34,039 bases of DNA from Thermoanaerobaculia bacterium (lineage in GTDB: Bacteria > Acidobacteriota > Thermoanaerobaculia > Multivoradales > JAHZIX01). Position 1 is the stretch's first letter; each line of letters begins with the position of its first letter. The stretch lies in NCBI GenBank assembly GCA_027069135.1, contig JALXFE010000625.1:1-34039 (forward strand). Direction: 5' to 3'. Position numbers and translations under genes: made by a program. Under the pieces are notes generated by a model that did not search any database, was not told the origin of the DNA, and saw nothing but the letters and a program-made list of their open reading frames with translations. Below are positions 1-26,047 of this stretch, piece after piece.

Positions 1-122
1 ACCTCAAACCATGGTTCTCGAACAACTTTTCCATTAACTCTGACTCGACCATCAATAATTACCCGGTCGCAGAATCTTCTCGAGCCGATACCCGCTTTCT
101 GCAGGAAAGTCCTGAGTTTCAT
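1..122 (-). CDS. S4-domain pseudouridine synthase (RsuA/RluB-type), N-terminal fragment
   Basis: The minus strand reads from an ATG at 122 through the window edge with no stop, giving 40 codons. The product begins MKLRTFLQKAGIGSRR and continues with DGRVRVNGKVV, which is the RNA-binding S4 signature (xLxKFLAxAGxxSRR ... GxVxVNG) found at the start of RsuA/RluB-family rRNA pseudouridine synthases. The catalytic domain lies outside the window, so the exact paralogue cannot be named. A GGAGGT lies 14 nt upstream of the ATG, a long spacing, and a TATACT hexamer lies between it and the ATG. The gene is divergent from the motor operon. This stretch is less GC-rich than the rest of the window. Some other S4 protein is possible, but the spacing of SRR and VNG fits RsuA/RluB best. 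Confidence 0.85.
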   Translation of the reverse strand, partial: MKLRTFLQKAGIGSRRFCDRVIIDGRVRVNGKVVREPWFE

Positions 123-232
123 AGATTAAAAGTATAACCTCCGTTCGTGAATTTTTCCGTGGGCTTCAAGGGGAGGGCGAAGACGAAGAGAACGAGACGG
201 CCAGAACCAGTGCCCCGGAGGTTATCGACCTC

Positions 233-562
233 CTGATCCGGGTCTGGGATCGATGCCAGGATGACGGCAGCTTCCATCCAGGGATCGTCCGGCGGGAGCT
301 CTCGAAGGAAGGCCTCGACCTCGAGGTGCATAGCGGGGTGGATCTCGAGCTAGGAAAATCCGTGATCGCCGTGATGTCCCCCAACGGGGACGAGGTCTAC
401 CTGCTCCCCAGCTTCAACGATTCCCCGGCGGCGGTGCGGCAGTGGTTCGACAACCAGGGGGCCGACGCGAGGCTGGCCCGCATCGACCATCTGATCCAGC
501 CGGCGGTGTTGGGGTCCCGGCAAGGAAATTACGAGCTGAAAGCGAGAGGGGCCATCGCTTGA
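233..562 (+). CDS. Small protein of unknown function, first gene of the motor operon
   Basis: I do not recognise this family. The frame has strongly biased, coding-like codons and stays open from 125 to the TGA at 560-562, but no ATG, GTG or TTG lies in frame before a GTG at 326. The start is therefore unresolved. I chose CTG 233 because GGAGG (217-221) lies 11 nt upstream; GTG 326 would give 78 residues. The segment before 233 encodes a plausible acidic linker, so a rare start nearer 125, or a sequence error, is also possible. The product is about 109 residues, soluble, with no signal peptide or membrane segment. It has a mixed alpha/beta look and a conserved-looking VYLLPSFND stretch. Its stop overlaps the TTG start of the next gene, so it is probably translationally coupled to the membrane proteins downstream. 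Confidence 0.6.
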   Translation: MIRVWDRCQDDGSFHPGIVRRELSKEGLDLEVHSGVDLELGKSVIAVMSPNGDEVYLLPSFNDSPAAVRQWFDNQGADARLARIDHLIQPAVLGSRQGNYELKARGAIA

Positions 563-909
563 CCCACCCTCTGTCGGTTCTGGGAGGGGGAGGCCTGGCG
601 GGCGCCGATACGGTGGTAGCCGTGGGCTTCGTACTGCTGGCCGCGGCGGTCATCGCCAACGCCCGGTCCCACCATGCCCTGGATCGGGAGGTCCTCCGTT
701 TGAAGCGCCGTCTCAGGTCTCTCGAGGAATCCTTGGCGGAGCTCGGGCGGCGCCCGAGAGAGCTCCGGCCCCAGGAGGTGAAAGAACGGAAGAAACGCCT
801 CGCCGATGTCTTGCGCTCCCTCCTGGGGCAGCTGCGAGCCATCGGCGGTCGGGGGGAGATGGGAGAACGGGAGATGGGGGAAAGCGGAAAAAACGAGGAG
901 ACGCCATGA
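559..909 (+). CDS. Small single-pass membrane protein with coiled coil
   Basis: The start is TTG 559, which overlaps the previous TGA in a TTGA arrangement. The 116-residue product has a Gly-rich N-terminus, one hydrophobic segment at about residues 17-35 (TVVAVGFVLLAAAVIANA), then a charged helical region rich in Arg, Leu and Glu (about 40-95) that should form a coiled coil. The end is a low-complexity GEMGEREMGE stretch. Its stop overlaps the ATG of the VWA-like gene in an ATGA junction. No family is recognised. Position and topology suggest a small structural subunit of the membrane complex encoded downstream; this is inference. Confidence 0.75.
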   Translation: MTHPLSVLGGGGLAGADTVVAVGFVLLAAAVIANARSHHALDREVLRLKRRLRSLEESLAELGRRPRELRPQEVKERKKRLADVLRSLLGQLRAIGGRGEMGEREMGESGKNEETP

Positions 910-2273
910 AGGACAGGATCCTGATCGCTATTTTGGGGGGCAGCGCCTTGCTCGCTCTGGCCATCTGGTTGATCACCAGCGGCGGCTCCGAACCCCGGTA
1001 CGAGAGGCTACGGAGTCTCGACCTCGCCGCCACCGCCATTCCTACCGGGGGCGAGGGGGGTCCGGAACCGGACCGTGTCCGGCCGTCCACGGATCACCGA
1101 AGGCTGAGAATCTACGTCGATGTCTCGGAATCCATGGCCGGCTATCTCCCGGTGGGACCGGAGGGGGGGGCGGCAGGGTTTCGAACGGTAGCCCAACTGG
1201 TGCCGGACCATCTGCTGCGTCTCTATGGACCCATCGAAGCCGTCCAATGGGTCGCCGTCGACGACCGGCTCCACCCGCTGGGCGATCAACCCCGATTTCG
1301 GCCGGGTGAGTTTCGTGGAACGGAGACCTTCCTCGACCTGGCGGTGGAGGAAGGTTTTTCCCTGTTGGCCCAAGGGGAGATCGAGGCCTTCGCCCTGGTG
1401 ACGGATCTCGTGGCAACCCGGGAAGTGAGCGGTGCTCTGGGGCTCTATAACGCCATCCGGGAATGGCTCCTCGCGGCAGAGGTCCGGTCCGGCGGCTCAG
1501 ACTTCGGCCTCCTTGGGGTCCGGGTTCCTTTCCATGGAGTGGTCAACGGCAAGTGCCAGGCTGTCGAGGGGCTCGGTTGCTGGTATAGCGAGAGAGGGCG
1601 TGGCTGGCACCCCCTTTCGGCCGTCGTCACGCGTCCCTTTTACGTTCTGATCTTCGGCCGAAGCGGCCTCGGGAAGGCCACCGGAGGGCCCCAAGAAAGC
1701 CTGGTCCATCAGGCCAGCGCGGCGCTTTTGGAGGACGCGGAGAATCTGGGTTTCGAGGGGCGGTGGGAGCTCCTCACCCGTTTGGCTCGGCCGCTCCCAG
1801 CGGCTCTTCACTGCGAGGTGACGGGTCCCGGTGGCGGGGAGCAATTTGCCCTCCTGCGCACCTCTTCTGGGCGTTACCGTTGCCAGCAGGATCAGACGGT
1901 GAGGATGGCCTGTCGCCTCGAGGCCGGCGGCGAGGGTCGGGAAAGGCCTCCGGCCATCGGATGGAAGGCCACCGCCGCAGACCTTTCCTGGGACGCGCCC
2001 CTTGCCGAAGCGAGGATCGAGGACGGAAGGATCGTGGTGGACATCGATTGCGCAGAGGCCCGCCAGGAGGCACCGGAAGGGCCCCTGATCTTCACGAGCC
2101 TGCTGGCCGAAGCCACCGAGGTGGCCGGCGGTTGGGCCCTTTGGTCGGTGGAGTCGGACGAGCAGGAAGAGCAGCTCGACCGGACCTTGCAGCTGCGCCA
2201 CTTCGTTGCCGGCACCCGGCCCGACATTTTCCAGATTCAGGTAGAGGAGCCCTTGCTGGGGGAACGACCCTGA
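906..2273 (+). CDS. Membrane-anchored VWA-like protein
   Basis: The 455-residue product starts at ATG 906, with GAGGAG 6 nt upstream. One transmembrane anchor lies at about residues 5-24 and is followed by a Gly/Pro-rich spacer. The stretch LRIYVDVSESM gives a DxSxS metal-ion-dependent adhesion motif (Asp72, Ser74, Ser76) at the end of a beta strand, as in von Willebrand factor A domains. A later GTET and ALVTDL are reasonable candidates for the remaining MIDAS residues. The C-terminal half (about 260-455) looks beta-rich and is not recognised. The TGA stop shares one base with the ATG of the MotA/ExbB-like gene. VWA domains often mediate metal-dependent protein contacts, so a sensor or scaffold role beside the channel is likely. 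The fold is fairly secure; the role is inferred. Confidence 0.8.
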   Translation: MKDRILIAILGGSALLALAIWLITSGGSEPRYERLRSLDLAATAIPTGGEGGPEPDRVRPSTDHRRLRIYVDVSESMAGYLPVGPEGGAAGFRTVAQLVPDHLLRLYGPIEAVQWVAVDDRLHPLGDQPRFRPGEFRGTETFLDLAVEEGFSLLAQGEIEAFALVTDLVATREVSGALGLYNAIREWLLAAEVRSGGSDFGLLGVRVPFHGVVNGKCQAVEGLGCWYSERGRGWHPLSAVVTRPFYVLIFGRSGLGKATGGPQESLVHQASAALLEDAENLGFEGRWELLTRLARPLPAALHCEVTGPGGGEQFALLRTSSGRYRCQQDQTVRMACRLEAGGEGRERPPAIGWKATAADLSWDAPLAEARIEDGRIVVDIDCAEARQEAPEGPLIFTSLLAEATEVAGGWALWSVESDEQEEQLDRTLQLRHFVAGTRPDIFQIQVEEPLLGERP

Positions 2274-3910
2274 TGCCCGGCCCTCTCTTGATGGTGGGCG
2301 GCAGCCTTGTGGCCGCTATCGTGGCCGTTGAGGCCTGGCTTTTAGGGAAAGCCTGGCGCTGCGTTCGCCGGGATCTTGCCGGAGAGATCGCCGAGGTCGA
2401 GGCTCGGCTCCTCCTCGATATCGATCACAGCGCCCGGCGGGGTTTCGCCCCCGATTGGGGCCGCTATCGGGACGAGCTGGACCGGCTCTACGAGCCCCTG
2501 GACGAGCGCTTGAAGAACCTGGCGTCGGCAGCTCTCGCTTCCGGGTTGGGGGGAACCATTCTGACGCTCATCGCCCACGCTTTGGTCTTCCTTCCGGCCA
2601 GCGGCGACTTCGATGTGTCTCCCCGACAGGTGATCCTCGGAATCGGCGTCGGGCTCTCCGGCAGCTTCGCCGGGGTGGTGAGCAACCTGATCATCACGCT
2701 GGGCTATCTGCCTCGCCTGGAGGAGCGTTTCGAGGCCGCAACCCGGCCCGTCTGGCAACGCTTGCGGGATGCGAGTCATCGCCGCCCGGCGACGGAGGCC
2801 TTCGTCGAGACCCTCCAGCAGGAGATGGTAGAGCTCCGGGGGGTTCTCGGCAGCGAGGTGGGGGATGCCTTCAAGGCTGCCATCGGCCAGTTTCCGGACA
2901 TCCTCGGTAGCCTCAACTCTCAGCTGGAAGAGCTCTCGCGGGTCGTCCAAGCTCAGGGCGAGAACGTCAAGGACATGATCACCACGGTGGATGAGAGCGC
3001 AAGGAACGTCAAGGAGAGTAGCGAGCTTCTGGCACCGGCCATCCGGCCCTTGGTGGAGTTTTCTGAGAAGTTAACGGCATTGCCGGGAGCCATTTCGGAG
3101 GTTCTGATCCGTCAGGAGAAAGTCTGGGTAGAAGACCTGGATCAGCGCCACGAGGAGCGCTTTCAGCAGCTCAGCTCCCTGGTGGAAGATGCCGGGAAGC
3201 AGGAGCGGGCGATGAAGCTGGAGATCAACGATCTGGTGAGGGTGGTCGATGCCATCCCGGAGAAGCTGAGAGAGTCCATCGAAAGGGGAGCCGGGACCTT
3301 CAGTGACCGGTTCCAGTTCTTGGCGGGAGAGCATCTGGAGGCCTTGAAAGAGTTTTCGGCGAGGAATGAGGAGGAGTGGCACGGCAAGATCGCTCGGGTG
3401 GTGGAGGATCTTCTTCGCTCCGCCCAACGGCCGATTGAAGACAACCTCGTACCGAGGATCGAAGACCTGGGGGACAAGCTCACCACCAATGCCGAGATGC
3501 TCTCCGAGGCGGGGAAAGAATTCAACCGTTATCACCAGGCGTGGCTCAAGAGCCAGGATGAACAACTCGCCAGCTGGGTCGACGCGGCGATCAAGATCGA
3601 GGGTGCAGCCACGTCCCTAGGGGAAAGCGAGGGGCATCTCCGGCGGGCCGCCGGGGCTCTGGAGGGAAGCGCCGAGACGCTAGACGGTGTCACCGAGATC
3701 CAGGGGGCCTTCGAAGAGAAGCTCCGGGCGAGCCTCGCCGGCGTGACGGAGAGCTATATCCAGGAGATTCATTCGGTCCTGGGGGAGATGAAGAAGCGCA
3801 GTGAGCGCTACGACGCTGTCCTGAAGGATCAGTCGAGGGTCCTGATTGAGGCTCTCCGGACTCTCGATCTCGGCTCCGATGGGTCGTCGAGCCAGGAAGT
3901 AGATCCTTGA
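2273..3910 (+). CDS. MotA/TolQ/ExbB-like channel subunit with long helical tail (ZorA-like)
   Basis: The start is ATG 2273, in a TGATG junction with the VWA gene, giving 545 residues. Three membrane segments are visible: about 5-25, 83-107 and 119-146. The second carries SGLGGTILTLI, close to the GLLGTVxGI pattern of TolQ/ExbB/MotA, and the third is the small-residue-rich GIGVGLSGSFAGVVSNL. These are followed by about 400 residues of charged, heptad-like helix with almost no other features. A proton-channel core with a very long cytoplasmic coiled-coil tail is the known design of ZorA in Zorya anti-phage systems, where the tail transmits the signal inward. The adjacent MotB-like gene supports the pairing. 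A dedicated Tol/Exb-type energiser is the alternative, but the tail length argues for ZorA-like. Confidence 0.8.
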   Translation: MPGPLLMVGGSLVAAIVAVEAWLLGKAWRCVRRDLAGEIAEVEARLLLDIDHSARRGFAPDWGRYRDELDRLYEPLDERLKNLASAALASGLGGTILTLIAHALVFLPASGDFDVSPRQVILGIGVGLSGSFAGVVSNLIITLGYLPRLEERFEAATRPVWQRLRDASHRRPATEAFVETLQQEMVELRGVLGSEVGDAFKAAIGQFPDILGSLNSQLEELSRVVQAQGENVKDMITTVDESARNVKESSELLAPAIRPLVEFSEKLTALPGAISEVLIRQEKVWVEDLDQRHEERFQQLSSLVEDAGKQERAMKLEINDLVRVVDAIPEKLRESIERGAGTFSDRFQFLAGEHLEALKEFSARNEEEWHGKIARVVEDLLRSAQRPIEDNLVPRIEDLGDKLTTNAEMLSEAGKEFNRYHQAWLKSQDEQLASWVDAAIKIEGAATSLGESEGHLRRAAGALEGSAETLDGVTEIQGAFEEKLRASLAGVTESYIQEIHSVLGEMKKRSERYDAVLKDQSRVLIEALRTLDLGSDGSSSQEVDP

Positions 3911-4728
3911 GGCGACGGCGGCAGATCAACATCTGGCCCGCTTTTGCGGATCTCATGACGGTCCTGGCCGTCGTGGGCTTGGTGACCACCGTGGGAGTGT
4001 TGGCGGCCCATAAGAGCGAGAGCGAGGACCGGCCCAGCGCGGAAGACCTGGAAGCGGCGGAGCAGGCCCAAGAGGTTGCGCAGCGGAGGGTGTCGGAGCT
4101 GGAACGAGAGTTGGAGGAGCTTCGGCGGAAGCGCGAGACTCTTCGGAAGGACGCGGAAGCCTGCGAAGAGAAGGTTGGGGACCTGAAGAAGGAGTTGGGC
4201 CGCAACGAGAGGCTGCAGACCGCAATGCAGCGATTCCAGAGCATCATCGACGGCATCGCCCAAGACGACCTCCTGCGCTTCGACCCCGACCAGAGCCTGC
4301 GTCTGGGAGATGAGTTGGTACGCTTCGAAAGGAACCGGGTGGAACCCATCTGGCAACCCGGTGGACCGCAGCACTTACAGCATTTCTGCGGTCGCCTTTC
4401 CCAGGAATTCGCGCGGCTGGAGGGAGAGTATCCGGATCCCTCCTCCCTCTTCACCATCCACGTGGAAGGGCATTCCGATAGCACCCGATGCCTGGGGGGA
4501 GAGAGGGATTGCAACTGGTCCTTCTCGAGCCAGCGGGCGGTCAATTTTCTCGAGTTGATGCGCGACGAGAGGTTCTGTCCCGGGGGGGCCGGCTGGCGGC
4601 TCCGGCCCATCGGCTATGCCGACACCCGCCCGGTACCACCGGTGCCGGGGCAGGCGCCGGTGCCGATCCGGCGTATCTCCCTGCGGGTGGTGCCGGACTA
4701 CGAGCGTTGGACCTCGAGCGACCGGTAG
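3907..4728 (+). CDS. MotB/OmpA-like stator subunit (ZorB-like)
   Basis: The start is TTG 3907, overlapping the upstream stop in TTGA, with AGGAAG just upstream. The 273-residue product has a short basic N-terminus and then PAFADLMTVLAVVGL. Asp15 sits at the start of the single membrane segment (11-34), matching the proton-carrying Asp of MotB (ADxMT). A coiled coil follows (about 45-110). The OmpA-type peptidoglycan-binding domain spans about 130-262: EGHSD at 187-191, SSQRAVNFL, GYADTRPV and the closing RRISLRV are all recognisable. Together with the ZorA-like protein it should form a peptidoglycan-anchored, ion-driven complex. Insertions with several Cys residues (CLGGERDC, FCPGG) sit between the OmpA strands and could form disulphides. 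It is the last gene of the operon. Confidence 0.85.
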   Translation: MRRRRQINIWPAFADLMTVLAVVGLVTTVGVLAAHKSESEDRPSAEDLEAAEQAQEVAQRRVSELERELEELRRKRETLRKDAEACEEKVGDLKKELGRNERLQTAMQRFQSIIDGIAQDDLLRFDPDQSLRLGDELVRFERNRVEPIWQPGGPQHLQHFCGRLSQEFARLEGEYPDPSSLFTIHVEGHSDSTRCLGGERDCNWSFSSQRAVNFLELMRDERFCPGGAGWRLRPIGYADTRPVPPVPGQAPVPIRRISLRVVPDYERWTSSDR

Positions 4729-4777: not shown

Positions 4778-7700
4778 TCAGCGATCCTTGGTAGCGAGTT
4801 GGGACAACGCCGCCTCCATGGCCTCGTCGAGGGAGGCGGGAGCGACCACCCGGGGGAGATCCCTTCCTTCCTTTGTAGGGAAATCGAAATCCGGGACCAG
4901 GAGGGCTGTGGCCTGATCGGCGTGCCAAGCTTTGACCAATCCGTCGATTCGAGACGAGTCGTCGGAAGCTTCGATGAGCAGAATGTGGGCCTGACCCGGG
5001 GGCCTGGCAGCGAAGGGGCGGAGGCTCTCCCTACCTTGATGCTGGTTCCATGAGAAGAGGAGAGCTCCATTGTCTTCTGAAGGCGTCCACCCTTCGGTCA
5101 TCGACTCCTTGTTCGCCGCCACGACCACGGCCGTGGGCCGAGCCTTCTCCAGCTCTGGTACGTTCATGGAAAGCCAGAGGGTCCACGCGTCGAGGGGCCC
5201 ATCTAGGTCACCACGATGAGCGGCGCGGAGGGCCTCGCAGCTCTTTTCGAGGTGGGCTCCGAATCCCAGGAAGGCCAACGCCGGCGCGGCCATCCAGCGG
5301 GGGACTCCCGTCTTCTCGCGAAAGGCCAGGTGAAGGATCTGGGTCCACTCCTCCAGGCTCAGCTGGTCGATGGGCGAGCGCAGCAAATTCCCCGGAGGGA
5401 TCTTGGCGGCAGCCGTCACCAGGTGCTCCCAGAGGGTGGGGGCCTCGTCGCCGCCGCTGACGAGGAAGCGCTTGAGAGCCTTATCCCACGACTCCCAGGC
5501 CTGCTCTTGAAGCTCCTCGGTGGGTGGGATGGCGGGCAACTCCTCCCTCCATTTCTCGAAGCTATCCCGCCAGGCTTGAAACCGTTCCCCGGCGAGGAAG
5601 GGGCTCTTCTCGCCCCGGGTGAGCTCGGGTAAGGGATTCTCTTTCGGGAGGGATGCCTCGAGAGTGTCCAGGGCCCGGTCGAAATCCCGTTCCGATCGTT
5701 GGCTCGCAGGGCGCAGGAGATGGGCGACGGCCTCCAGGCCGAAAATGAAACGGCTCTTGGGGCTCCCACCGACATAGGCCTGGCCGGCGAGGGCTCCCAG
5801 CACCAGGCTTCGCTCGAGGCTCCTGCTCCTCCGCTCCATCATTTTCAGATAGTCCTCGAGAATCTGTCGTTCCTCTTGGAACCTACGGTCGGTGTCCGAG
5901 GGCTCCTCGGCTCCCTCCAGCCTCCGGCGGACCGTCTTGACGTGCCTCCAAGAAGGCACCGGTGACAGGAAGAGGAGCTTGGTGGCCAGCTCCTCCAGGT
6001 CCAGGGCCTCGGTGCAGTCGAAGATGAACGTGTCCAATTTCTCCAGCAGCCGCCCCATTTTCAGCATCTCCCCGAGGGGAAGCTCTTCCGGCGCTCCGCC
6101 GTCGGTGGGCGCCTCGCCAAGACCGGATGCCTCGGGTTGATCCTCGGATCCGGCATCGGAGGGGAAATAGGGGAGGCCGTAGGGGTCTACACACCATCGA
6201 AAAATGGGCGGATTATTGGAGACCTCCTCCAGAAGTCTCAGTTCCCTCTCGTCCCCCCCCTTCTCAGTATTGGGGATGGCGGAACGGATGGCGTAGGAGA
6301 CCCGGGGGTCCCCGGCAATCTCTTTGGAGAGGCTGTCGGACTCCGAGCGCAGGCCCGGGAGGTCGCAGAGCCGGTCTACCAGTTCTCGGAGGACGCGCAG
6401 TAGGAAGTCGAGATCGAGGCTGCTCAGGGTGCGGATACGGAACCTGGAATGGCTCTCCGGTGGGTGCCTGCGATGGCGGAGATACCGCCGCAGGACCTTC
6501 TTTCGAACCTTTAGCTCCCGCTTTCCGGCCATCCACTTTCGAAAAGGGTAGTAGAGGGTGTCGTAGAGGGCCTGAACGATCCCCGGATCGAGGGCCAAGC
6601 GTTCCCGGGTCTCCGGCTGATCGAGGGTGAGCTCGACGGCGAGCTGATAGGTGGCGGCGTAGCGGTCTCCGCGGCGGCTCCGGATAGCGTCGGCGTCCAC
6701 GTCCAGGACCCCCCCCGGACCAGCCAGACGCCGCAGCTCCCGCCGCAGGTCCACCGGATGAAGGCAGAATCTGCACAGCAGGGTATAGGTGAGCATCCCC
6801 CGAGCCATTCTCGAGCCCGGCCTTTCATCCACTGCGATGGCCCGCATCAGGTAGTCCCGCAGGTCCTGGGGCCGGTGAATGACGAAGAGGCGGTCGCTGA
6901 AGTAGGTGTGCTCCCGCGGGTAAGGAGCCCCCGGTGAGCGTTTGCACACCTCCTCGAAGTAGTCCCGGTCGGTGAGGAAACAGAAGAAAACCCCGGCACT
7001 GGCCAGATGCTTCAGGTGGTGGATCACCGCCTCCAGCCGGGGCCTCAGGTGATCGACCTTATCCAACTCGTCGATGACGAAAACCGGGCTCAGGCCGGCG
7101 TCGTGAAGGCGATCCACCAGGACCGGCAGCTCCCGTTCCAGGGTCGCCGGAGAAGTATCGGGAAAGAAGAGGCTCTTTTCTTCGATTTCCCGGAGGTCGG
7201 TTCCCTTACGGCGAAGGCTGAAGGAGCCGGTGGCAAGGGCGGCTACCGCGGCGACGACCCCGGCTAGCGGGTAGCCCGTCACCGCTACCCCTAGGGCGGT
7301 GGCGGTAAAGAGGCCGACCAGGGTGCGCAGGAGCTCCGGAGAAGAGATATTGACGGAGCGACTTCTCTCTTCCTCCCGGTGCCGGAGTTTCGATTTCGAA
7401 AACTGGCTCTCTTCCCGACCGCTAATCCGCCGGTAGGCACGGGCCGCCGAGGCCAGCGCGACGATCTCGAGGGGGCCCCGGCCAGCGGTAGGATCCGACT
7501 TCGGGAACAGGATCCCCTTGGGGAGACTACCGGCTCGCCGCCAGAAGTCCCGCAGATCCTCCAGATTGAGACTGCCATCCAAGGCCAACTCGAAATGCGC
7601 AGCCAACTCTGCGAGGTCGTCGGTCCCAGAGGTCCCTATCGCCTTTTCTTTGAGGCGATCTCGGAATGCCCGGCTCAACTCGCGACCGAGGGCGCGATAA

Positions 7701-8077
7701 AGGCCCGCGGTGATCCGCTTCAGAACCCGTTGCCGATCCTCCGGTCCGGTTTCCGGACGGCTGGCTCCGGGCCTCGGGAGTAGCACGCGGTTGGGGAGCA
7801 GATCCGGCCCGTGGAGGAGCACGAGGAGGGGGCGACGATTAGTCCGTTGCCGGAGCTCCTCCCGGACCTCCTGGACCACTTTTCGAACCAGGGTCGTCTT
7901 GCCGGAGCCCCGATGGCCGGAAATCAGGACGGTTCGTCCAGGGATTTTGCGTTCCAGGTAACGGCGCAGGATCCTCGCTAGTTGCCGGGAGGCGTCCGAG
8001 TCGGCGAGGATGACCTCCTTCCCACCGTCGGCGGCCTCGGTCAGCGGCTCCGGAGAGTCGACCAGCCGCAGCTTCAT
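4778..8077 (-). CDS. KAP-like P-loop ATPase with membrane hairpin, 1099 residues
   Basis: I start it at ATG 8077, because the ATG overlaps the upstream gene's TGA in ATGA and the Walker A motif lies near the N-terminus, as usual. Walker A is GHRGSGKT (54-61). A Walker B-like strand is PVFVIDELDKVD (331-342), with Asp-Glu at its end. Between them lies a hydrophobic pair (about 251-285), which is the hallmark of KAP-family NTPases: a membrane hairpin inserted in the P-loop domain. FFCFLTDRDYFEEV after Walker B resembles the sensor strand of that family. The remaining 700 residues are largely helical, charged and unrecognised. KAP NTPases organise membrane-associated complexes and occur in some defence systems. 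The gene is convergent with the motor operon, 49 bp from its end. ATPase function is well supported; the substrate is unknown. Confidence 0.8.
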   Translation of the reverse strand: MKLRLVDSPEPLTEAADGGKEVILADSDASRQLARILRRYLERKIPGRTVLISGHRGSGKTTLVRKVVQEVREELRQRTNRRPLLVLLHGPDLLPNRVLLPRPGASRPETGPEDRQRVLKRITAGLYRALGRELSRAFRDRLKEKAIGTSGTDDLAELAAHFELALDGSLNLEDLRDFWRRAGSLPKGILFPKSDPTAGRGPLEIVALASAARAYRRISGREESQFSKSKLRHREEERSRSVNISSPELLRTLVGLFTATALGVAVTGYPLAGVVAAVAALATGSFSLRRKGTDLREIEEKSLFFPDTSPATLERELPVLVDRLHDAGLSPVFVIDELDKVDHLRPRLEAVIHHLKHLASAGVFFCFLTDRDYFEEVCKRSPGAPYPREHTYFSDRLFVIHRPQDLRDYLMRAIAVDERPGSRMARGMLTYTLLCRFCLHPVDLRRELRRLAGPGGVLDVDADAIRSRRGDRYAATYQLAVELTLDQPETRERLALDPGIVQALYDTLYYPFRKWMAGKRELKVRKKVLRRYLRHRRHPPESHSRFRIRTLSSLDLDFLLRVLRELVDRLCDLPGLRSESDSLSKEIAGDPRVSYAIRSAIPNTEKGGDERELRLLEEVSNNPPIFRWCVDPYGLPYFPSDAGSEDQPEASGLGEAPTDGGAPEELPLGEMLKMGRLLEKLDTFIFDCTEALDLEELATKLLFLSPVPSWRHVKTVRRRLEGAEEPSDTDRRFQEERQILEDYLKMMERRSRSLERSLVLGALAGQAYVGGSPKSRFIFGLEAVAHLLRPASQRSERDFDRALDTLEASLPKENPLPELTRGEKSPFLAGERFQAWRDSFEKWREELPAIPPTEELQEQAWESWDKALKRFLVSGGDEAPTLWEHLVTAAAKIPPGNLLRSPIDQLSLEEWTQILHLAFREKTGVPRWMAAPALAFLGFGAHLEKSCEALRAAHRGDLDGPLDAWTLWLSMNVPELEKARPTAVVVAANKESMTEGWTPSEDNGALLFSWNQHQGRESLRPFAARPPGQAHILLIEASDDSSRIDGLVKAWHADQATALLVPDFDFPTKEGRDLPRVVAPASLDEAMEAALSQLATKDR

Positions 8078-8862
8078 GGTTGTTTTCCGCTGCCGGTATC
8101 GCCGACGACGGTGTCCCCGGCATCTTGTTTCGAGGGGGCCGGAGCCGGGATCGTGGCCGTGGAACTGGCCGGTCGGGCACCGGTGTCGCCGAGGGCGGCC
8201 TTGACCGCGAAGGCCGGTTCCCCTTGGCCACGGAGTTTCTTCGATGAATAGCCGTCGGCGATGAGAACGACGCCCAGAAGGACTCCGAAACCGAGAGTCG
8301 CAGCGAGATAGATCACCGGTCGGGTGGTCCGCCAACCCCTCAGGTTGCCCCCGAGACCGCCCCAATGACGTTCGAAGTGCATCGTGTCCCCGTCCGCGAG
8401 GGCCGCCGCCAGTCGGCCTGCGAAGTAAAGGGTGAGGATTCCGAAGACGGTTGCGGCGATGCCGGTCCGCCAGCTAACGCCGCCGGTGGCGACCCCGGTG
8501 ATGATGCCCACCGGAAGAGCGAAAAAGAGGGGCGTCAGGGCCTGCCGGGCATGGCGGGCTCGGTGGGCCAGACTGTGAATGACGGCGGCGGCGAGAAGTA
8601 CCGCTGTGAGGAGAGCCACCGCCTCTATCCGGTTCACACCCAGGTGGGGGCCAAGCTCGTCGAAAAATCCCAGGAGAATAACCCCCGTGAGAACCATCAG
8701 GAAGCCGTAGAGGACCGAAGGTCGAAGGCGAGAGAAGCGCTTCCCTAGTCTCTGCCGAAAGGGTTCCTTCTTTCTGGGGTGTCCCACGGCCTTCTTTTCC
8801 TTCGGTGATTGGGCCGAAGCACCGGCACTGGATCTTGCTTCGCTGGCTTGGATCGTGGACAT
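8074..8862 (-). CDS. Five-helix integral membrane protein
   Basis: Two ATG codons are adjacent, at 8865 and 8862. AAGGAG (8869-8874) is 3 nt from the first and 6 nt from the second, so I chose 8862, giving 262 residues. A basic, polar N-terminal tail of about 50 residues is followed by hydrophobic segments near residues 50-68, 80-100, 106-126, 132-154 and 182-202, then a Ser/Thr/Ala/Pro-rich tail. No enzymatic motif is visible and the family is not recognised. The gene sits between the lipase-like gene and the KAP ATPase and overlaps the latter by four bases, so it is probably the membrane partner of the ATPase. That partnership is inferred from operon position only. Confidence 0.75.
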   Translation of the reverse strand: MSTIQASEARSSAGASAQSPKEKKAVGHPRKKEPFRQRLGKRFSRLRPSVLYGFLMVLTGVILLGFFDELGPHLGVNRIEAVALLTAVLLAAAVIHSLAHRARHARQALTPLFFALPVGIITGVATGGVSWRTGIAATVFGILTLYFAGRLAAALADGDTMHFERHWGGLGGNLRGWRTTRPVIYLAATLGFGVLLGVVLIADGYSSKKLRGQGEPAFAVKAALGDTGARPASSTATIPAPAPSKQDAGDTVVGDTGSGKQP

Positions 8863-10454
8863 CATCGACTCCTTAGTTGTTCGATCATCAGTTCCCGTCG
8901 CTGCCGGTGAGGTAAATCACTTCCTCCTCCCACACCACCCCATCGCCCCCGAGGGCCAGGACATCGGACTCGAGGCTGATGCCCTCCTCCATCACCTCCG
9001 AAGATCTGCCGAGCCTCAGGCGACCCGGATTCCAGACGACCGTTCCCAGAATTTCGGGAGCCACACCGAAATCGAGATCCCAGAGCTCGAGGTGGATGCG
9101 ACTGGATCGGGGTTTGAAATGCAGCCGGGCCTGCCAGTCTAGGAACACGGGATCCGGGGGATGGCGCATCTCGGGGCTGCGAGCCACTTCCGCACCGCCG
9201 ATACAAAGAACCGCCAGGAGCTCCGGCTCGGCATCGAAGAGATCTGGGTGGAGATGGGATAGGCCCCAGATTTTCCTTAAGTGGAAGACCACCGAGCCCT
9301 CGAGGCTCGGCGCGGTGCAGGGGGAGGGTTCGCCGTGTCGTGACCGAGTGAGGTTCAGGCGCTGGCCGAAGGTGCCCTGGCGGTCGGGGGGGGAGAATGC
9401 GGAACTCCAAACAGCCTGGGGAATCCCGGGGCAGCGACTCGATCCGCCGGCGGGCGATTCCCCGGCGACCCCGGCGCCAGATCTCGGGCTGTGAGATGGG
9501 CAGGGGGCGGCCCCGGGAATCCCTGACCTCGATCCGACCCAGAGGCGGAAGGTAGTCTTCAAAATCCAGGACCAGTGAGACGTCCGCCTCGAGCCTCGCC
9601 TCCCGGAGCTTTGGCGGGCCGCCGATGGCGGCTAGCAGAGCCGTGTATCGGGACTTGACGGTGGGGTGGTCAGCATTGACTCTTTCGACGTAACCCAGGA
9701 GCGAAGGATGCTCGCAGAAGAACTCGATGTTCCCCAGGTGCTGACTGCCGGTGAGAACGGCGCCGTCGCCGTCCTCGAGTGCCTTTCCAGTAAGACGGTG
9801 GATCCATCCCATGATCAGGTTCGAAAGCTTGTGAGCGAGGACAGAGCGATCGAGGACGAGGCTCCGCAGCGCTGCCAGCTCCGCCTGCAAGGTCTTCCCG
9901 TCCGACCCCAGGGGCGATCCGGTAGTGATCAGACAGGCGTACTCCAGGTCTGTGGGATGAGGGCTGCGGTTGAGCTCTTCCAAGAACGCCCCGCCGTACT
10001 CCGACGGGATCGGCTCTTTGAGGAGGGGGGCGTCTATCTTGATGCCGGCAGCATGCTCGATCTTCGCGATGATGGCGTCGAACTTGCCCAGGAAGCCTTC
10101 CCCCAGGAGGCTGCCGTCGAGGGATTTTCGGACCCAGCGGTCGAGCCGGGTGACCAGGGCCAGCTCACTCCCTCGGTGGGGGGACGAGACGGTGGCCAGT
10201 TTGGTGACCCGGTGGTCTTCGATGTGGCCGCCCTGCTCCAGAAAGCCCTGGAGGCCGGAATCGACCCAGGCCTTCGAGGAGCCCCCAGGGCCATGGATGA
10301 AGAGCATCGGGTAGGGAACCTGGATCGCCAGCCGCCTCGGCTGGAGCGCTTGCTTCCTCTCAGATTCTGGGCCGCCGAGAAGCAGCAGCACCAGGGCGAC
10401 CACCGCCAGCATGGCGGTGCCTGCAATGATCACCGTCGTGTCCCTGCCGCGCAT
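8862..10454 (-). CDS. Lipase-like alpha/beta-hydrolase, frameshifted, nucleophile motif not found
   Basis: The start is ATG 10454, with AGGGG 8 nt upstream. Residues 7-27 form a signal anchor. LFIHGPGG (51-58) is the oxyanion strand of alpha/beta-hydrolase lipases, and LATVSSPHRGSELA is the strand that normally follows the catalytic Ser elbow. DGDGAVLTGSQ resembles the region near the acidic residue, with a later His in CEHPSLLG. Only about 33 residues separate HGPGG from SPHRGS, and no GxSxG lies between them, so the segment normally carrying the nucleophile is absent. After about 9393 the frame turns into Arg/Pro/Gly-rich nonsense, while the next frame encodes sensible protein (GTFGQRLNLTRS ... 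EEEVIYLTGSDGN) ending at a TGA at 8888-8890. One extra G in a run of eight explains the break. The intended gene is therefore 8888-10454, about 520 residues. Confidence 0.65.
   Translation of the reverse strand: MRGRDTTVIIAGTAMLAVVALVLLLLGGPESERKQALQPRRLAIQVPYPMLFIHGPGGSSKAWVDSGLQGFLEQGGHIEDHRVTKLATVSSPHRGSELALVTRLDRWVRKSLDGSLLGEGFLGKFDAIIAKIEHAAGIKIDAPLLKEPIPSEYGGAFLEELNRSPHPTDLEYACLITTGSPLGSDGKTLQAELAALRSLVLDRSVLAHKLSNLIMGWIHRLTGKALEDGDGAVLTGSQHLGNIEFFCEHPSLLGYVERVNADHPTVKSRYTALLAAIGGPPKLREARLEADVSLVLDFEDYLPPLGRIEVRDSRGRPLPISQPEIWRRGRRGIARRRIESLPRDSPGCLEFRILPPRPPGHLRPAPEPHSVTTRRTLPLHRAEPRGLGGLPLKENLGPIPSPPRSLRCRAGAPGGSLYRRCGSGSQPRDAPSPGSRVPRLAGPAAFQTPIQSHPPRALGSRFRCGSRNSGNGRLESGSPEARQIFGGDGGGHQPRVRCPGPRGRWGGVGGGSDLPHRQRRELMIEQLRSR
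9386..9393. other. Homopolymer frameshift site in the lipase-like gene
   Basis: A run of eight G on the plus strand (eight C in the gene) marks the switch between coding frames. Reading seven instead of eight joins EFRILPP to DRQGTFGQRL and restores an open frame to 8888. This could be a sequencing or assembly error, an inactivating mutation, or a slippery tract that varies on and off. Confidence 0.7.
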
Positions 10455-10732: not shown

Positions 10733-11767
10733 CTAATGCGCGTTCTGGTGGTCTAGCTCGAGATTCTTCAGGCTGACGGTGCGGTTGACGCGTTTCTCGC
10801 CTTCGAGAAAGACAAGGCTAATGTTCAGATTGAAACGCTCACCTTCGATGCGTCGCTCTTTTTCAGCCTTGAAGGTCATCGCGAACACCGTCGATCCCGA
10901 CGGAAGTGTCGTGAAATCCTCTTTCTTGGAGGTCTTGGTGACGCAGTTGAGAGTACCCGTTCCACGGCCATCTCCCAGCGCGCGGTGCTGAGCACCATTC
11001 TCGTCCAGCAAATAAAGATTGCAGACTCCGAAGCCCCCTTTCTTAATTCCCAGGATGAGGTCCGTATTTGACGTATTGACGAAATTCATCGGGACCGTAG
11101 CCTCTTTCCGATCCAGGGGCCGGAGGACGGTCAGGGCCTCAATTCGGAGGTGTCCTGCACTCCAGGAATCCTGCGTCTTTGCTTTAGGAGGTTTCCGATC
11201 GGGCGTGTCGGCCTCCCCGAGGTTGTTGAGGAGAGGCTGGATACGCGGCGGATCCTCGTCTTTCCCCTCAAAACGGATCAGGACCGAGGAGATCACCTGG
11301 GAAGTCGTCGCCGAGAAGGCATGCACGTCCACCTGAACGACTTCTCGAGTCAGAGTGACAATTCCCCGAATCAGAGTATCGGCTCCCAGGACTTTTCCAG
11401 TCCGGCTCGCAGTTTCCGAATCCATGATGCCGGTCCCGAGAAGGTCCTGCTCCTCCACAGCCTGAGGCAAGTCCTTTCGCTCGACGACTTTGATCCGGCT
11501 TTTCCTCGACGCGAAACGGGAGCGGAGCTCTCCCGCTAGCAAGTCCCCGAGGCTCGACGAACTCCCATCGGAGGTTCTGAAGCTGAGGATTGCCACCCTC
11601 CGGGTTCCTGCCGCCTCAAGTTCTGGGAACAGCTGGGCCACGATGGTGTCCGTACAGCGCTCGTAGCACTGCTGGAGGGGTGGGGGAGAAGGTAGGGCTA
11701 AGGTCCCGCCAGCTGTAGCGAGAAGCATCACGCCTGCGACAAGATTGAGAATGGAAGCTCTTCTCAT
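10733..11767 (-). CDS. Secreted CsgG/FlgO-like protein
   Basis: The frame is open further upstream, but only MRRASILNLVAGVMLLATAGG (starting at 11767) gives a proper signal peptide, so I start there; a second ATG at 11773 adds only Met-Val. The 344-residue product has a cleavable-looking signal (1-24) and then a domain at about 55-165 with RRVAILSFR, LLAGELRSRF, IKVVERKDL, TGKVLGADTLIRG and a following beta strand. This is the order of features in CsgG/FlgO-like outer-membrane or periplasmic proteins. The C-terminal 175 residues look beta-rich and unrecognised (VPMNFVNTSNTDLIL). It lies 62 bp downstream of the kinase on the same strand and is followed by a terminator, so it is the last gene of the sigma-kinase operon. 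It may be the envelope-side output or sensor of that pathway. Confidence 0.75.
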   Translation of the reverse strand: MRRASILNLVAGVMLLATAGGTLALPSPPPLQQCYERCTDTIVAQLFPELEAAGTRRVAILSFRTSDGSSSSLGDLLAGELRSRFASRKSRIKVVERKDLPQAVEEQDLLGTGIMDSETASRTGKVLGADTLIRGIVTLTREVVQVDVHAFSATTSQVISSVLIRFEGKDEDPPRIQPLLNNLGEADTPDRKPPKAKTQDSWSAGHLRIEALTVLRPLDRKEATVPMNFVNTSNTDLILGIKKGGFGVCNLYLLDENGAQHRALGDGRGTGTLNCVTKTSKKEDFTTLPSGSTVFAMTFKAEKERRIEGERFNLNISLVFLEGEKRVNRTVSLKNLELDHQNAH

Positions 11768-11829
11768 GACCATACCGCCAATTTGATATTCAAGATGGTT
11801 GGTTGCCTTGAGGGTAGCATTTTTGCATT

Positions 11830-14223
11830 TCAGTGCTTGAGATTGATCATTCTCACCCACTCCTCCCATCGCTCCCGCGCCTCCCGCGCTGGACGCGAGT
11901 TCTCGCCCCTCGCCTTCGCGATGATCTCCGCTGCACCTTCGAGCAGTGGTCGGGCGGCGTCGAGGTCCCCTTGAGCCAGCAGGCAGGCACCCAGGAGGCT
12001 GCGGGCGTCGGCGGCGCGCCAGGGGGAGCGGTCTTGGGATCGGTCGACGACCGGGCGGATGAGACGTTCAGCGGCCTGGGCGTCCCCTAGCTCGAGGAGG
12101 ACCGCCGCAAGGTTGCGCTGCACGATCTGTGTCTTGTGGTCGCCGGGCTCTTTTTTCCTGACAGCGACTTCCAAGGCTTCTTCGAGGAGGCTTCGGGCCT
12201 CGGTCAGATCGCCTGGGCCTTTTCTCCCGGAAAGAGCGTAGGCGAGGGCGGATTTTGCCCAGGCTGTCTTGATATCGAATCCATTGAGCCGGATCTGTAA
12301 GGCCTGCCGGTATTTCGCCACCGCGGCGTCATGATGGCCCCGGGCGTCCTCGAGGGTCGCCAGGTTGATCAATACTTTGGCCACCGATGGATGGTCGGGG
12401 CCAAGGTTGTCTTGCCGGTTCTGAAGCGCTTCTCGCAGCAGGGGCTCGGCCTCGTCCAGGCGTCCCTTGCGCATCAGGAAGAGTCCGTAGTTGTTGAGGC
12501 TCCTTCCAACTTCCGGACTGGCATCACCATAAAGCTGGCGCCGAACTTCAAGGGTTTCTCGGTAGAGGGTTTCGGCCTTCTTCGTTTCGCCTTTTTGTTC
12601 GTAGAAGGGCGCCAGGTTCGCTCGGAGATCGGAGGCCTCGTATTTGTCGAACTCCGGATGCGCTTCGTGGAGGGCGGAAGCTTCCTGGTAGAGCTCGCTG
12701 GCCCGAGCTAGATCTCGCTGGGCTTTCACCGCCAGGGCCAGATTCGTCAGGCTGGCGGCTAGGGGCCCTGGATCGGACAGCTCTCTTCTGATGTCTAAGG
12801 CCTGTTCGAGGATGTCCGTGGCCGCTGGAAGATACTCGAAGCGATAGAGAGTCCTCCCGAAGCGGTCAAGAATCTTGGCTCGGTCTGCCGGATCTTCGAA
12901 TCGGAGACTTGCGAGAAGCTTGTCCACAGCGGTCTTGGCAGCTTCAGCTCGCGATTCGGAAGCTGTGGGATCGAAGGCCTCCAGGGTTTCAAACAGTGCT
13001 TCGCTGAAGTTTTCGGCACGGGAGGCTTGGTGCCGAGCTTTCACCTCCAGCAGGAGGGCTCCGGTTCCGGTCGCCAGGAGCAACAGGAGGGAAATACCTG
13101 CCAATAGCTCTCTCTTGTTGCGACCCAGGAAGCGGGCGACGATATATGCGTTCGAATAGGGCCGGGCCTCGACCGGCAGCTTCTCCCGATACCGACGGAG
13201 ATCTTCGGCCAGAGCCGCGGCGGAGGAATAGCGCTCCTGGGGATCCCAGGCCATGGCCTTGAGAGTGATGGCGTCGAGGTCTCCGCGGAGGTCTTCCGGT
13301 CGCAGGGGATGGGAGTGGTCCTCGACGAGAGCCTTCGAGGGGACCTGGAGGGGGGCGTTCGGGGCTTTGAGGGTGTCCGGACCGCGACCGGTCAGGAGCA
13401 AGAAGAAAAGGGCGCCCAGCGAGTACACGTCGTTGGTGGTAGTGATCGGGGCTCCATCGATCTGCTCCGGGCTGGCGTAGCGAGGGGTACCCAGGCGGAG
13501 CGTGAGGGAGTGGTCGCCCCCTTCCTGACCCTGTTGGAGGATCTTGGCGATTCCGAAATCGAGAAGCTTCGGCTGTCCATCAGGAGTGACCAGGATATTG
13601 GAGGGTTTCAGGTCGCAGTGGACGACCATGTATTGGTGGGCCGTATGCACCGCGTCACAAATCTTGAGGAAGAGCTCCAAGCGCTGGTCGAGATCCGGCT
13701 GCTTCTGGCTGCAGTAGAGATCCAACCGACTCCCGGCAACGGACTCCATCACCAGGTAGGGGAGGCCATCCTCGGTCGCGCCGCCGTCGAGCAACTGCAC
13801 GATATTCGGATGATCCAAGTCTGAAAGGATCTGTTGTTCGGTGCGAAACCGGCGAACGAAGTCACCGGTATCGAAACCCTTCCTCAAGACCTTGATCGCT
13901 ACCTCTTGATCGAATCCTCCGACGACGCGCCGGGCTCCGTAAACCACCCCCATACCCCCGCGGGCGATCTCTCCTTCGAGGCGGTAAGGACCGATTTGCT
14001 GACCGGCTCGGTACTCCGGCGGGCGGCCTGCGATGAGATCGAGGATCGGCTCTTCGAAGAGGTCTTCGACATCGCTTCCGAGATCCAGGTAGCTTTCGAG
14101 CTCCCGCTGAAGCTCCTCGTCGCCCCCGCAATGGGCCTCGGCAAAAGCTCGTCGTTCCTCCGGAGGGAGGTCGAGTGCTCGATCAAGCAGGGTTTTGACT
14201 TCTGTCCAGCGTTGACGGGTCAT
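11830..14223 (-). CDS. Transmembrane Ser/Thr protein kinase with C-terminal TPRs
   Basis: ATG 14223 has GGAG 9 nt upstream, which is better than the GTG two codons earlier, and gives 797 residues. A short helical N-domain (1-75) precedes a Hanks-type kinase domain: glycine loop GEIARGGMGVVYG (84-96), VAIK with Lys111, an alpha-C Glu near 129, catalytic loop HCDLKPSN with Asp204, DFG 222-224, and TPRYASPEQ. The usual HRD Arg is Cys, making it a non-RD kinase. One membrane segment lies at about 373-393, followed by TPR-like helical pairs to the C-terminus (for example SLNNYGLFLMRKGRLDEAEPLL), which should lie outside the cytoplasm. It sits 66 bp after the ECF sigma gene. Kinase-ECF pairs of this kind are known, with the kinase activating the sigma factor by phosphorylation. 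Confidence 0.9.
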   Translation of the reverse strand: MTRQRWTEVKTLLDRALDLPPEERRAFAEAHCGGDEELQRELESYLDLGSDVEDLFEEPILDLIAGRPPEYRAGQQIGPYRLEGEIARGGMGVVYGARRVVGGFDQEVAIKVLRKGFDTGDFVRRFRTEQQILSDLDHPNIVQLLDGGATEDGLPYLVMESVAGSRLDLYCSQKQPDLDQRLELFLKICDAVHTAHQYMVVHCDLKPSNILVTPDGQPKLLDFGIAKILQQGQEGGDHSLTLRLGTPRYASPEQIDGAPITTTNDVYSLGALFFLLLTGRGPDTLKAPNAPLQVPSKALVEDHSHPLRPEDLRGDLDAITLKAMAWDPQERYSSAAALAEDLRRYREKLPVEARPYSNAYIVARFLGRNKRELLAGISLLLLLATGTGALLLEVKARHQASRAENFSEALFETLEAFDPTASESRAEAAKTAVDKLLASLRFEDPADRAKILDRFGRTLYRFEYLPAATDILEQALDIRRELSDPGPLAASLTNLALAVKAQRDLARASELYQEASALHEAHPEFDKYEASDLRANLAPFYEQKGETKKAETLYRETLEVRRQLYGDASPEVGRSLNNYGLFLMRKGRLDEAEPLLREALQNRQDNLGPDHPSVAKVLINLATLEDARGHHDAAVAKYRQALQIRLNGFDIKTAWAKSALAYALSGRKGPGDLTEARSLLEEALEVAVRKKEPGDHKTQIVQRNLAAVLLELGDAQAAERLIRPVVDRSQDRSPWRAADARSLLGACLLAQGDLDAARPLLEGAAEIIAKARGENSRPAREARERWEEWVRMINLKH

Positions 14224-14289
14224 GGGCACTCACTCCAGGGCTATCGCGTGCCCTATGACTTACCTAGCGTGCCGAGTTGCCAAACGGGG

Positions 14290-14886
14290 TCATGGAGGGG
14301 CAGCGTCCGGACCTTGGTCCTGAAGGGCCCGTTGCAACCAGAACTTGGCAGTCCTCCACTCCCGCTTCACGGTGGAATCAGAAATGTCGAGGAGCTCTGC
14401 GATTTCTTTCACTTGAAGTCCCAGAAAATAACGCAGGGTCACGATATGTGCTTGTTTCGGTGCAATTTTCTGCAGCTCTTCGAGGGCGAGATTCAGATCT
14501 AACAATCGACCGTGGGTGGGTGTCGAAGAGAGTAGGTTGGCGATGCCGGTATCGATGGAGATCGAGGCGACGGCTCCGCCTCGTTTCTCCGCCGAGCGCT
14601 TGCGGGCGTAGTCGACCAAGAAGTGGCGCATCACTTCGGCGGCGAAGTTGAAAAAATCCCCGCGGCCTTCGAAGTGGACATTCTTTTGGCCTCGCAGACG
14701 GAAGTAGACCTCGCTCACGAGGGCGGTGGGTTGGAGGGTGTGGGTCGCCGATTCGCGATGGAAGAAATACCGCGCCATGCGGTGGAGATCATCGAAGACC
14801 ACCGGCACCAGCTCATCCAAGGCGGATAGATCACCGCCGCTCCAGGCCTCCAGGAGGCCAGTAACTTCCGGCTCATTTCTGATCAT
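14290..14886 (-). CDS. ECF sigma factor, kinase-coupled type (TIGR02999-like)
   Basis: The frame opens earlier, but the sigma domain begins at ATG 14886 (MIRNEPEVTGLLEAWSGGD), giving 198 residues, a normal length. Region 2 spans about 9-95, with the signature HTLQPTALVSEVYFRL and MRHFLVDYARKR, then KRGG. Region 4 spans about 130-188, with a helix-turn-helix VKEIAELLDISDSTVKREW. These features match the acidobacterial-type sigma-70 subfamily described by TIGR02999, which is often adjacent to Ser/Thr kinases and lacks a classical anti-sigma gene. Here the kinase follows directly, so control by phosphorylation is likely. The divergent neighbour at 15106 and the operon itself are candidate targets. 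An alternative start at 15018 would add a poorly conserved 44-residue extension that I reject. Confidence 0.88.
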   Translation of the reverse strand: MIRNEPEVTGLLEAWSGGDLSALDELVPVVFDDLHRMARYFFHRESATHTLQPTALVSEVYFRLRGQKNVHFEGRGDFFNFAAEVMRHFLVDYARKRSAEKRGGAVASISIDTGIANLLSSTPTHGRLLDLNLALEELQKIAPKQAHIVTLRYFLGLQVKEIAELLDISDSTVKREWRTAKFWLQRALQDQGPDAAPP

Positions 14887-14897
14887 GACAGCGAATA

Positions 14898-14926
14898 AGT
14901 ATAGCGCAGAGATGAGGCGTTGGCCA
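14898..14926 (-). promoter_or_regulatory. Possible sigma-70-type promoter of the sigma-kinase operon
   Basis: On the minus strand TGGCCA (14926-14921), a 17-bp spacer and TATACT (14903-14898) match the -35 and -10 consensus at 4 of 6 and 5 of 6 positions. Initiation would fall only about five bases before ATG 14886, giving a nearly leaderless message. This is a motif match only. Confidence 0.35.
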
Positions 14927-15045
14927 GCGCGGTTTTCTGTGCTTTCGGAGGCAGGTGTTCCCTCAAACCCAGCCACTCTCAAGACATCGACCGTTAGAGG
15001 CCCATGAAGGTAGATCAAGACGCGTCCTGACCTTCTCGTAATCGT

Positions 15046-20061: not shown

Positions 20062-20115
20062 TCCTCCGCGCCGGCCATTTCTGCGAAGGTTCACCTGGCA
20101 AACCGAGGGCATGAA

Positions 20116-22833: not shown

Positions 22834-22911
22834 AGTTGCTCCGGTCCTTGATCGATGGGCTACCGTTGTGTCCTGCGCTCGCTTCGGGACCTTTATTGAT
22901 GTTCCTTGAGT

Positions 22912-22916
22912 GGAGG
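22912..22916 (+). promoter_or_regulatory. Ribosome-binding site deciding the tandem-CHAT start
   Basis: GGAGG lies 10 nt before TTG 22927. A TTG at 22906 lies upstream of this site and has no such motif in front of it, so 22927 is the preferred start. Confidence 0.5.
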
Positions 22917-22926
22917 TCTAGAGACG

Positions 22927-25944: not shown

Positions 25945-26047
25945 GTTCCGGGAGAAACCGTTCCGGAGACTTTCTACAAGGTAGGTCTGCCGGCGACTCT
26001 CGATGTTTTCTCGAGCCCTGAAAAGAGTAGTCTTGTCGATATGAAAT

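Follow-up and report, generated by a model that had tools for sequence, protein, structure and literature searches.

The window analysed here is the whole of contig C625 (34,039 nucleotides, JALXFE010000625.1) in the draft genome of a Thermoanaerobaculia bacterium, which amounts to 7.17 Mb in 626 contigs. The system under study is an operon on its + strand (128-4728) that encodes a Zorya-type membrane motor and a VWA protein, and whose other half, very likely, lies on contig C377 of the same genome and encodes a fusion of a tubulin fold with an Hsp70/actin fold. All the genes described by the first-pass annotation are present in the window sequence, and the five-gene operon that it reported was recovered with overlaps of 4, 4, 1 and 4 bases between neighbouring genes, in the order g1, g2, VWA, ZorA-like and ZorB-like. 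Since the window is the entire contig, the operon is cut at the left edge. Positions 1..127 form the left contig end, where the operon is interrupted and no homologous coding sequence is found, the g1 frame having stops before 128. This segment is AT-richer, has no homologue elsewhere in the genome and is possibly an assembly artefact. A repeat at the contig break was rejected as an explanation, positions 1-200 being found once in the genome.

The first gene, g1 (128..562, +), is represented in the window by its 3' part: its frame is open from 128, lacks a start codon within the window, and has its stop ending at 562. It encodes the soluble C-terminal domain of a membrane protein and aligns with the C-termini of intact g1 proteins in the homologous loci L008, L020, L022 and L023. 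An identity with GrpE was considered for g1 and set aside, as no family match supported it. The second gene, g2 (559..909, +, TTG start), encodes a protein with one membrane segment and a coiled coil, and its counterpart in L008 lies at 11080-11397. It was met only in the window and in L008; g1 is absent in L018 and was not found in L019.

The ZorA-like protein (2273..3910, +) joins a membrane part of MotA/TolQ/ExbB fold (residues 1-175) to a coiled-coil tail, measured at about 370 residues. In its AlphaFold2 model, residues 1-175 have predicted local distance difference test (pLDDT) values mostly between 80 and 92, with confident helices at 2-31, 36-56, 62-106 and 117-170; the tail, with pLDDT below 50, was read as helical only. 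The nearest PDB folds are ExbB (Z 12.1, 158 residues aligned), TolQ, PomA/MotA and ZorA (8vvi, Z 11.7, 99 residues aligned), and the Foldseek matches are dominated by the MotA/TolQ/ExbB/ZorA channel superfamily, to which the protein belongs as modelled. The fold-search lists of this model and of the tubulin model described below were each filled by one superfamily, and other folds are possible for the remaining parts. Because ZorA matches in PADLOC and in one further search were mostly coiled-coil artefacts, the membrane part was tested separately: with its profile, four ZorA chains rank 1-4 among 177,635 PDB sequences, at expectation (E) values of only 0.011-0.019, and MotA comes next (0.09). 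Coiled-coil matches of the operon proteins (apolipoprotein, SMC, MCP and others) were taken as composition artefacts. Pfam PF01618 is not matched by the ZorA-like protein; this miss was not used as evidence, because the canonical ZorA of locus L107 fails the same model. Named genomes were scanned with the ZorA-like protein for close relatives, and nothing was found.

The gene directly after it (3907..4728, +, TTG start) encodes the ZorB-like stator axis, which consists of a membrane segment with the motif WPAFADLMT (residues 10-18), a coiled coil and an OmpA-like peptidoglycan-binding domain. Within the close family the pattern W-P-A-x-A-D-L-M, which includes Asp15, does not vary, and the OmpA-like domain was aligned by its GH[ST]DS, NW.LS.QRA and RR motifs. 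The best PDB match of the ZorB-like profile is the Zorya I ZorB (8vvn_B; positions 9-238, the whole length; E 1.9e-15), and the PADLOC ZorB1 model matches the protein at 1.3e-11. With its N-terminal membrane helix, ion-binding Asp and OmpA domain, the protein fits by sequence the ZorB/MotB class of stator axes. The OmpA domain is present in the window ZorB and in distant homologues and absent from the closest ones. The ZorB C-termini in L008, L018, L019, L022 and L023 carry instead a short conserved periplasmic domain, and several end like VNQYFLLTNSSEVNR. The first-pass annotation had described a MotA/ExbB-like protein with a long coiled-coil tail, a MotB-like protein with the proton Asp and an OmpA domain, and a Zorya-type pair; model, motifs and profiles bear out all three, and since the PDB profiles rank ZorA and ZorB first, the pair is of ZorAB-like and not of flagellar or TolQR/ExbBD kind. 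Aligning the ZorA-like protein with ExbB/TolQ-type proteins of the same genome gave nothing usable for a tree, and these pairs may fall inside or beside Zorya.

The VWA protein (906..2273, +) has an N-terminal membrane anchor and a metal-ion-dependent adhesion site (MIDAS) made of DVSES (residues 72-76), T and TD, in agreement with the earlier description of a membrane-anchored, MIDAS-bearing protein. In an alignment of 20 family members these motifs read DxSxSM, T and TDG, and hhalign comparison of this family with ordinary VWA_2 domains gave a probability of 95% (E 3.8e-8) in the correct register, against about 0.1% for two unrelated alignments used as negative controls. The clade of the window protein is too derived to be recognised alone (E 0.03). 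Where the window protein has DxSxS, most of its close homologues have DxSxP, and many distant ones have DxSxS as well. Pfam, NCBIfam and PADLOC gave no family name for the VWA protein or for the tubulin-Hsp70 protein.

The missing half of the operon was located through its homologues. A search of 59 relatives with the VWA protein gave one good match, L008 (same record as the Holophagales locus L021), where the intact order is small membrane protein, 1,599-residue protein, g1, g2, VWA, ZorA and ZorB. One full-length homologue of the 1,599-residue protein, and no other, is encoded in the genome of the window: it has 1,625 residues, is 42% identical, and its gene, on C377, ends 657 bases from the left end of that contig. 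The 5' part of g1, with two membrane segments, occupies the interval between this gene and the contig end, and a small membrane protein is encoded on the other side of the gene. No sequence overlap joins the two contigs; judging from the intact homologues and from the way the contig ends match, C377 very likely lies ahead of C625 in one operon.

The 1,625-residue protein is a fusion of a tubulin fold and an Hsp70/actin fold. The AlphaFold2 model of its N-terminal 620 residues (predicted template modelling score 0.84) is confident and aligns over 236 residues with FtsZ (Z 16.4). FtsZ or tubulins fill all 50 rows listed, and Foldseek agrees; the glycine-rich T4 loop, S-x-x-G-G-[TA]-G, is kept in 11 of 11 aligned homologues. 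The C-terminal 600 residues carry the phosphate motifs DFGTS and DLGGGTLD. The D-G and D-GG-T-D columns of the Hsp70-like alignment are invariant in 20 sequences, and the profile of these 20 members matches DnaK (1.9e-9) and MreB (2.3e-8). Pfam Tubulin_2 (PF13809) does not match the fused protein of this genome; an unfused homologue in L025 scores 44 bits (cut-off 27) and that of L026 is a weak match. The presence of a tubulin fold and an actin/Hsp70 fold in a single polypeptide is unusual in itself. The first-pass annotation had proposed that two small proteins, along with the VWA-like protein, take the place of the Zorya effectors. Both small-protein genes are present, but their apparent role arises because the contig breaks off here: upstream, on C377, lies the gene of the tubulin-Hsp70 fusion, which is the likely partner in the cytoplasm, and the constant partners of the ZorAB-like pair across genomes are the tubulin, Hsp70-like and VWA genes, not g1 and g2.

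Distribution was assessed at several depths. The scan of named genomes gave seven loci, in Vicinamibacteria and other Acidobacteria, Holophagales, Rhodothermales and Gemmatimonadota, and further relatives, with unfused genes, came from searches that covered about 400 genomes of the phylum. Both halves are contiguous in Acidobacteriota, Rhodothermales and Gemmatimonadota relatives, forming a single operon in L008, L018, L019, L022 and L023, with unfused versions in L028, L029, L025 and L065, and gene order is kept wherever the contig is long enough. The tubulin-like, vWA and OmpA-domain genes, which the contig edge splits in the window's own genome, are contiguous in L025, L028 and L105. Conservation of gene order in other genomes had been named as a check on the operon; the order recurs in other phyla and is therefore more than chance.

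By profile searches, tubulin-like, Hsp70-like and VWA genes co-occur at essentially every locus. A ZorB-like gene is found in 12 of 25 loci (window/C377, L008, L018, L019, L022, L023, L024, L025, L028, L029, L065 and L105), with ZorA beside it wherever readable; in L025 the MotA_ExbB match is just below cut-off (20.3 against 22.9 bits) and the OmpA match is good. Eleven of the 25 have no ZorB near the core (L026, L027, L060-L064, L066 and L068-L070), and two (L020 and L067) end too early for the motor to be scored. L029 ends before the tubulin gene, and in the degraded L024 the ZorB frame alone was checked. As a prediction test, 297 genomes were searched with the ZorB profile: the one strong new match beyond the profile members (G301, E 2.4e-30) lies, as predicted, in a complete operon of tubulin-Hsp70 fusion, VWA, ZorA and ZorB.

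The motor-less sister loci carry VWA, small membrane protein, tubulin and Hsp70-like genes, and in several of them the next genes encode either an FGE-sulfatase/beta-helix protein or zinc-ribbon proteins that also contain Ig/PKD or TPR parts. The tubulin-Hsp70-VWA core may thus accept different input or output modules. In the tree of the tubulin and Hsp70 parts, where several branches are long and deep joins uncertain, the fused clade of the window has full support and spans three phyla; the Rhodothermales locus L020 is nested among Acidobacteriota loci (support 100/99), which suggests horizontal transfer. By parsimony the fusion arose at least twice, L060 falling elsewhere in the tree, and the presence of the motor changed at least three times. 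The L060 gene (8885-13954) encodes an independent tubulin-Hsp70 fusion of 1,689 aa, outside the clade of the window and without ZorAB. Presence is patchy, one of two sampled genomes of the window's own genus having the system. L020 and L023 are broken by frameshifts, some of which may be assembly errors of metagenome-assembled genomes, and L019 has an insertion-sequence transposase gene inside the operon; the operon can therefore be lost.

The remainder of the window was considered separately. A large P-loop ATPase gene (4778-8365, -; AAA_16 E 4.3e-7, weak KAP_NTPase, two predicted membrane segments) converges on the operon, and was rejected as a component of the system because it is not seen beside homologous operons. 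The start of an open reading frame at 8862-10454 (-) resembles a lipase-like alpha/beta hydrolase, after which the frame seems to be lost; a more protein-like continuation at 8888-9562 (-) suggests a frameshift. Further along are a CsgG-like protein (10733-11869) and a Ser/Thr kinase with TPR repeats (11830-15018, -; 799 aa), ahead of which a sigma-factor-like protein is encoded. The two strands of 16306-30745 hold genes for several TPR proteins of very large size that resemble CHAT-type proteases (among them 16306-20061, 20116-22833 and 26048-30745); judged by eye, these genes may represent a further conflict cluster.

Taken together, the operon and the C377 genes would encode an envelope-spanning, ion-driven machine. 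Its most plausible role, to which we give about an even chance, is that of an accessory system for conflict with phages or other invaders. Five ZorA and two ZorB subunits would form the motor (ZorA5-ZorB2) in the inner membrane. On the periplasmic side, the VWA protein and the OmpA domain carried by this ZorB copy would register a disturbance of the cell wall or envelope, on which ion flow past Asp15 would turn or strain the ZorA pentamer. The rod-like ZorA tail would then relay the signal to the cytoplasmic tubulin-Hsp70 NTPase, whose assembly or change of state would be the response. A conflict-type role is favoured because presence is patchy, the fused clade spans three phyla with L020 nested among Acidobacteriota, copies are broken, and sister systems carry variable modules, which are likened to those of published conflict systems (PMC7159879). 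A more ambitious proposal is that a Zorya-type motor is mechanically coupled to the tubulin-Hsp70 NTPase and a surface-facing VWA protein, that rotation controls assembly of a cytoskeletal effector, and that the system forms a new envelope-triggered immune class; this we regard as tentative and less likely than not.

Several observations weigh against a conflict system. Plasmid and phage records gave no match, and the analysis established no link to phages, plasmids or defence islands; restriction-like neighbours are scattered (HSDR_N_2 near L008, Uma2 beside L018). Close ZorB homologues are devoid of the peptidoglycan-binding domain that Zorya requires (PMC11890865), no nuclease or toxin effector is recognisable, and the contact between ZorA tail and tubulin-Hsp70 protein is putative.

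The strongest competing explanation, which we consider possible yet less probable than a conflict role, is envelope or membrane remodelling without a defence function, after Makarova and Koonin, with the tubulin-Hsp70 protein as a cytoskeletal element and the motor driving it or pulling on peptidoglycan. FtsZl1 operons with vWA and OmpA-family proteins were interpreted as membrane remodelling systems (PMC2875224), and relatives of the motor fold do envelope work in Tol-Pal, Ton, gliding and flagella. Remodelling fits poorly, however, with a very patchy and apparently horizontally moved system, with the lack of the motor in about half of the tubulin-Hsp70-VWA loci, and with the broken copies in several genomes, which argue against an essential role.

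Zorya types were reportedly set out by Doron et al. in 2018. A genuine new subtype, in which ZorAB sense infection as in Zorya and tubulin-Hsp70 replaces ZorC/ZorD or ZorE, would accord with the Zorya I ZorB as best profile match, with the PADLOC ZorB1 score and with the long Zorya-like ZorA tail. It is nonetheless unlikely, since tubulin-Hsp70-VWA is always present and the motor optional. Moreover, the canonical Zorya I of L107, in the same phylum (ZorA, ZorB, ZorC 4.4e-16, ZorD 2.1e-197), has no tubulin, Hsp70-like or VWA gene within the 17 kb taken, and a genome-wide search for ZorC (EH_Signature), the one effector that it covered, found none in the genome of the window, with a model that finds the L107 ZorC at 1.1e-79. 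The PADLOC ZorC-ZorG models, which work on L107, gave no match to the operon proteins at E<=1, consistent with the earlier remark that ZorC, ZorD and ZorE are not recognisable in the operon. L106 and L107 both carry ZorA-ZorB-ZorC of canonical Zorya I, in two other genomes of the phylum; the ZorD frame of L106 appears cut short and is followed by mobile-element-like genes, and the ZorD of L107 is intact.

Zorya structures and subtypes I-III are described in PMC11890865, where defence is found to depend on ion flow, on the tail of ZorA and on the binding of ZorB to peptidoglycan. The window resembles Zorya in its three-helix ZorA-like channel with a long tail, directly followed by a ZorB-like, Asp-bearing, peptidoglycan-binding protein; the adjacent ZorA and ZorB pair that Zorya calls for is present, as is the tail, and peptidoglycan binding is plausible, judging from sequence, for this ZorB copy only. 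It differs in that the constant partners are VWA and tubulin-Hsp70, and that no ZorC/ZorD, ZorE or ZorF/ZorG was recognised. Judged by its parts, the window system does not qualify as Zorya, although it has a motor of that type. The undescribed Zorya-like subtype suggested by the first-pass annotation thus describes the motor but not the system, the core of which is tubulin-Hsp70-VWA.

An ordinary Tol/Ton- or gliding-type force transducer, with the VWA protein as motor-driven periplasmic arm and the tubulin-Hsp70 gene as an unlinked neighbour, is very improbable, since every ZorAB-bearing locus complete enough to judge has tubulin and Hsp70-like genes adjacent, although a published proposal (PMC12204202) does describe inner-membrane vWA force transducers driven by a motor. 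The channel fold and the MotB-type Asp motif are shared with TolQR/ExbBD and flagellar MotAB; in contrast with these, the profiles put ZorA/ZorB first, the tail is long and of ZorA type, and the window operon has no TolA/TonB or flagellar gene.

Among the closest known systems are the FtsZl1-vWA operons of Makarova and Koonin (2010), which contain OmpA proteins and a GTPase or kinase and are read as membrane-remodelling systems (PMC2875224); FtsZl1 corresponds to Tubulin_2 (PMC9871819). The likeness consists of a tubulin-superfamily protein, a MIDAS-bearing and membrane-anchored vWA protein, an OmpA-domain protein and membrane proteins in one predicted operon. In the present operons, however, the OmpA protein is of the ZorB/MotB stator type and comes with a ZorA-like channel, tubulin and Hsp70-like parts are fused, and no P-loop GTPase or kinase is seen; the main text of PMC2875224 names no MotA/ExbB-type motor and no Hsp70. 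The GTPase-centred conflict systems of Kaur et al. (2020; PMC7159879) combine tubulin, HSP70, GrpE and vWA with variable modules. What they share with the present system is the side-by-side arrangement of tubulin, HSP70 and vWA parts, an association with the membrane, and partners that are modular and vary. They differ in that neither a DO-GTPase nor GAP1, nor any other GTPase, was recognised in the loci scanned here, where no dedicated DO-GTPase/GAP1 model search was made; MotA or a proton channel is not mentioned in the main text of PMC7159879. No relevant paper joining "Zorya" and "tubulin" was found in the open-access literature, and priority is uncertain as supplements lay outside that search.

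The system is best read as a motor-bearing variant of the FtsZl1/Tubulin_2-vWA-OmpA class, akin to the tubulin/HSP70/vWA conflict systems, of which we found no description. It links Zorya motors with the long-unexplained FtsZl1/tubulin-vWA-OmpA operons, two literatures that do not meet in the text searched, and offers a candidate case of ZorAB working with a cytoskeletal-fold NTPase instead of a nuclease. In at least some FtsZl1 operons, by the same token, the OmpA-type protein may be a motor stator, which would give those systems an energy source.

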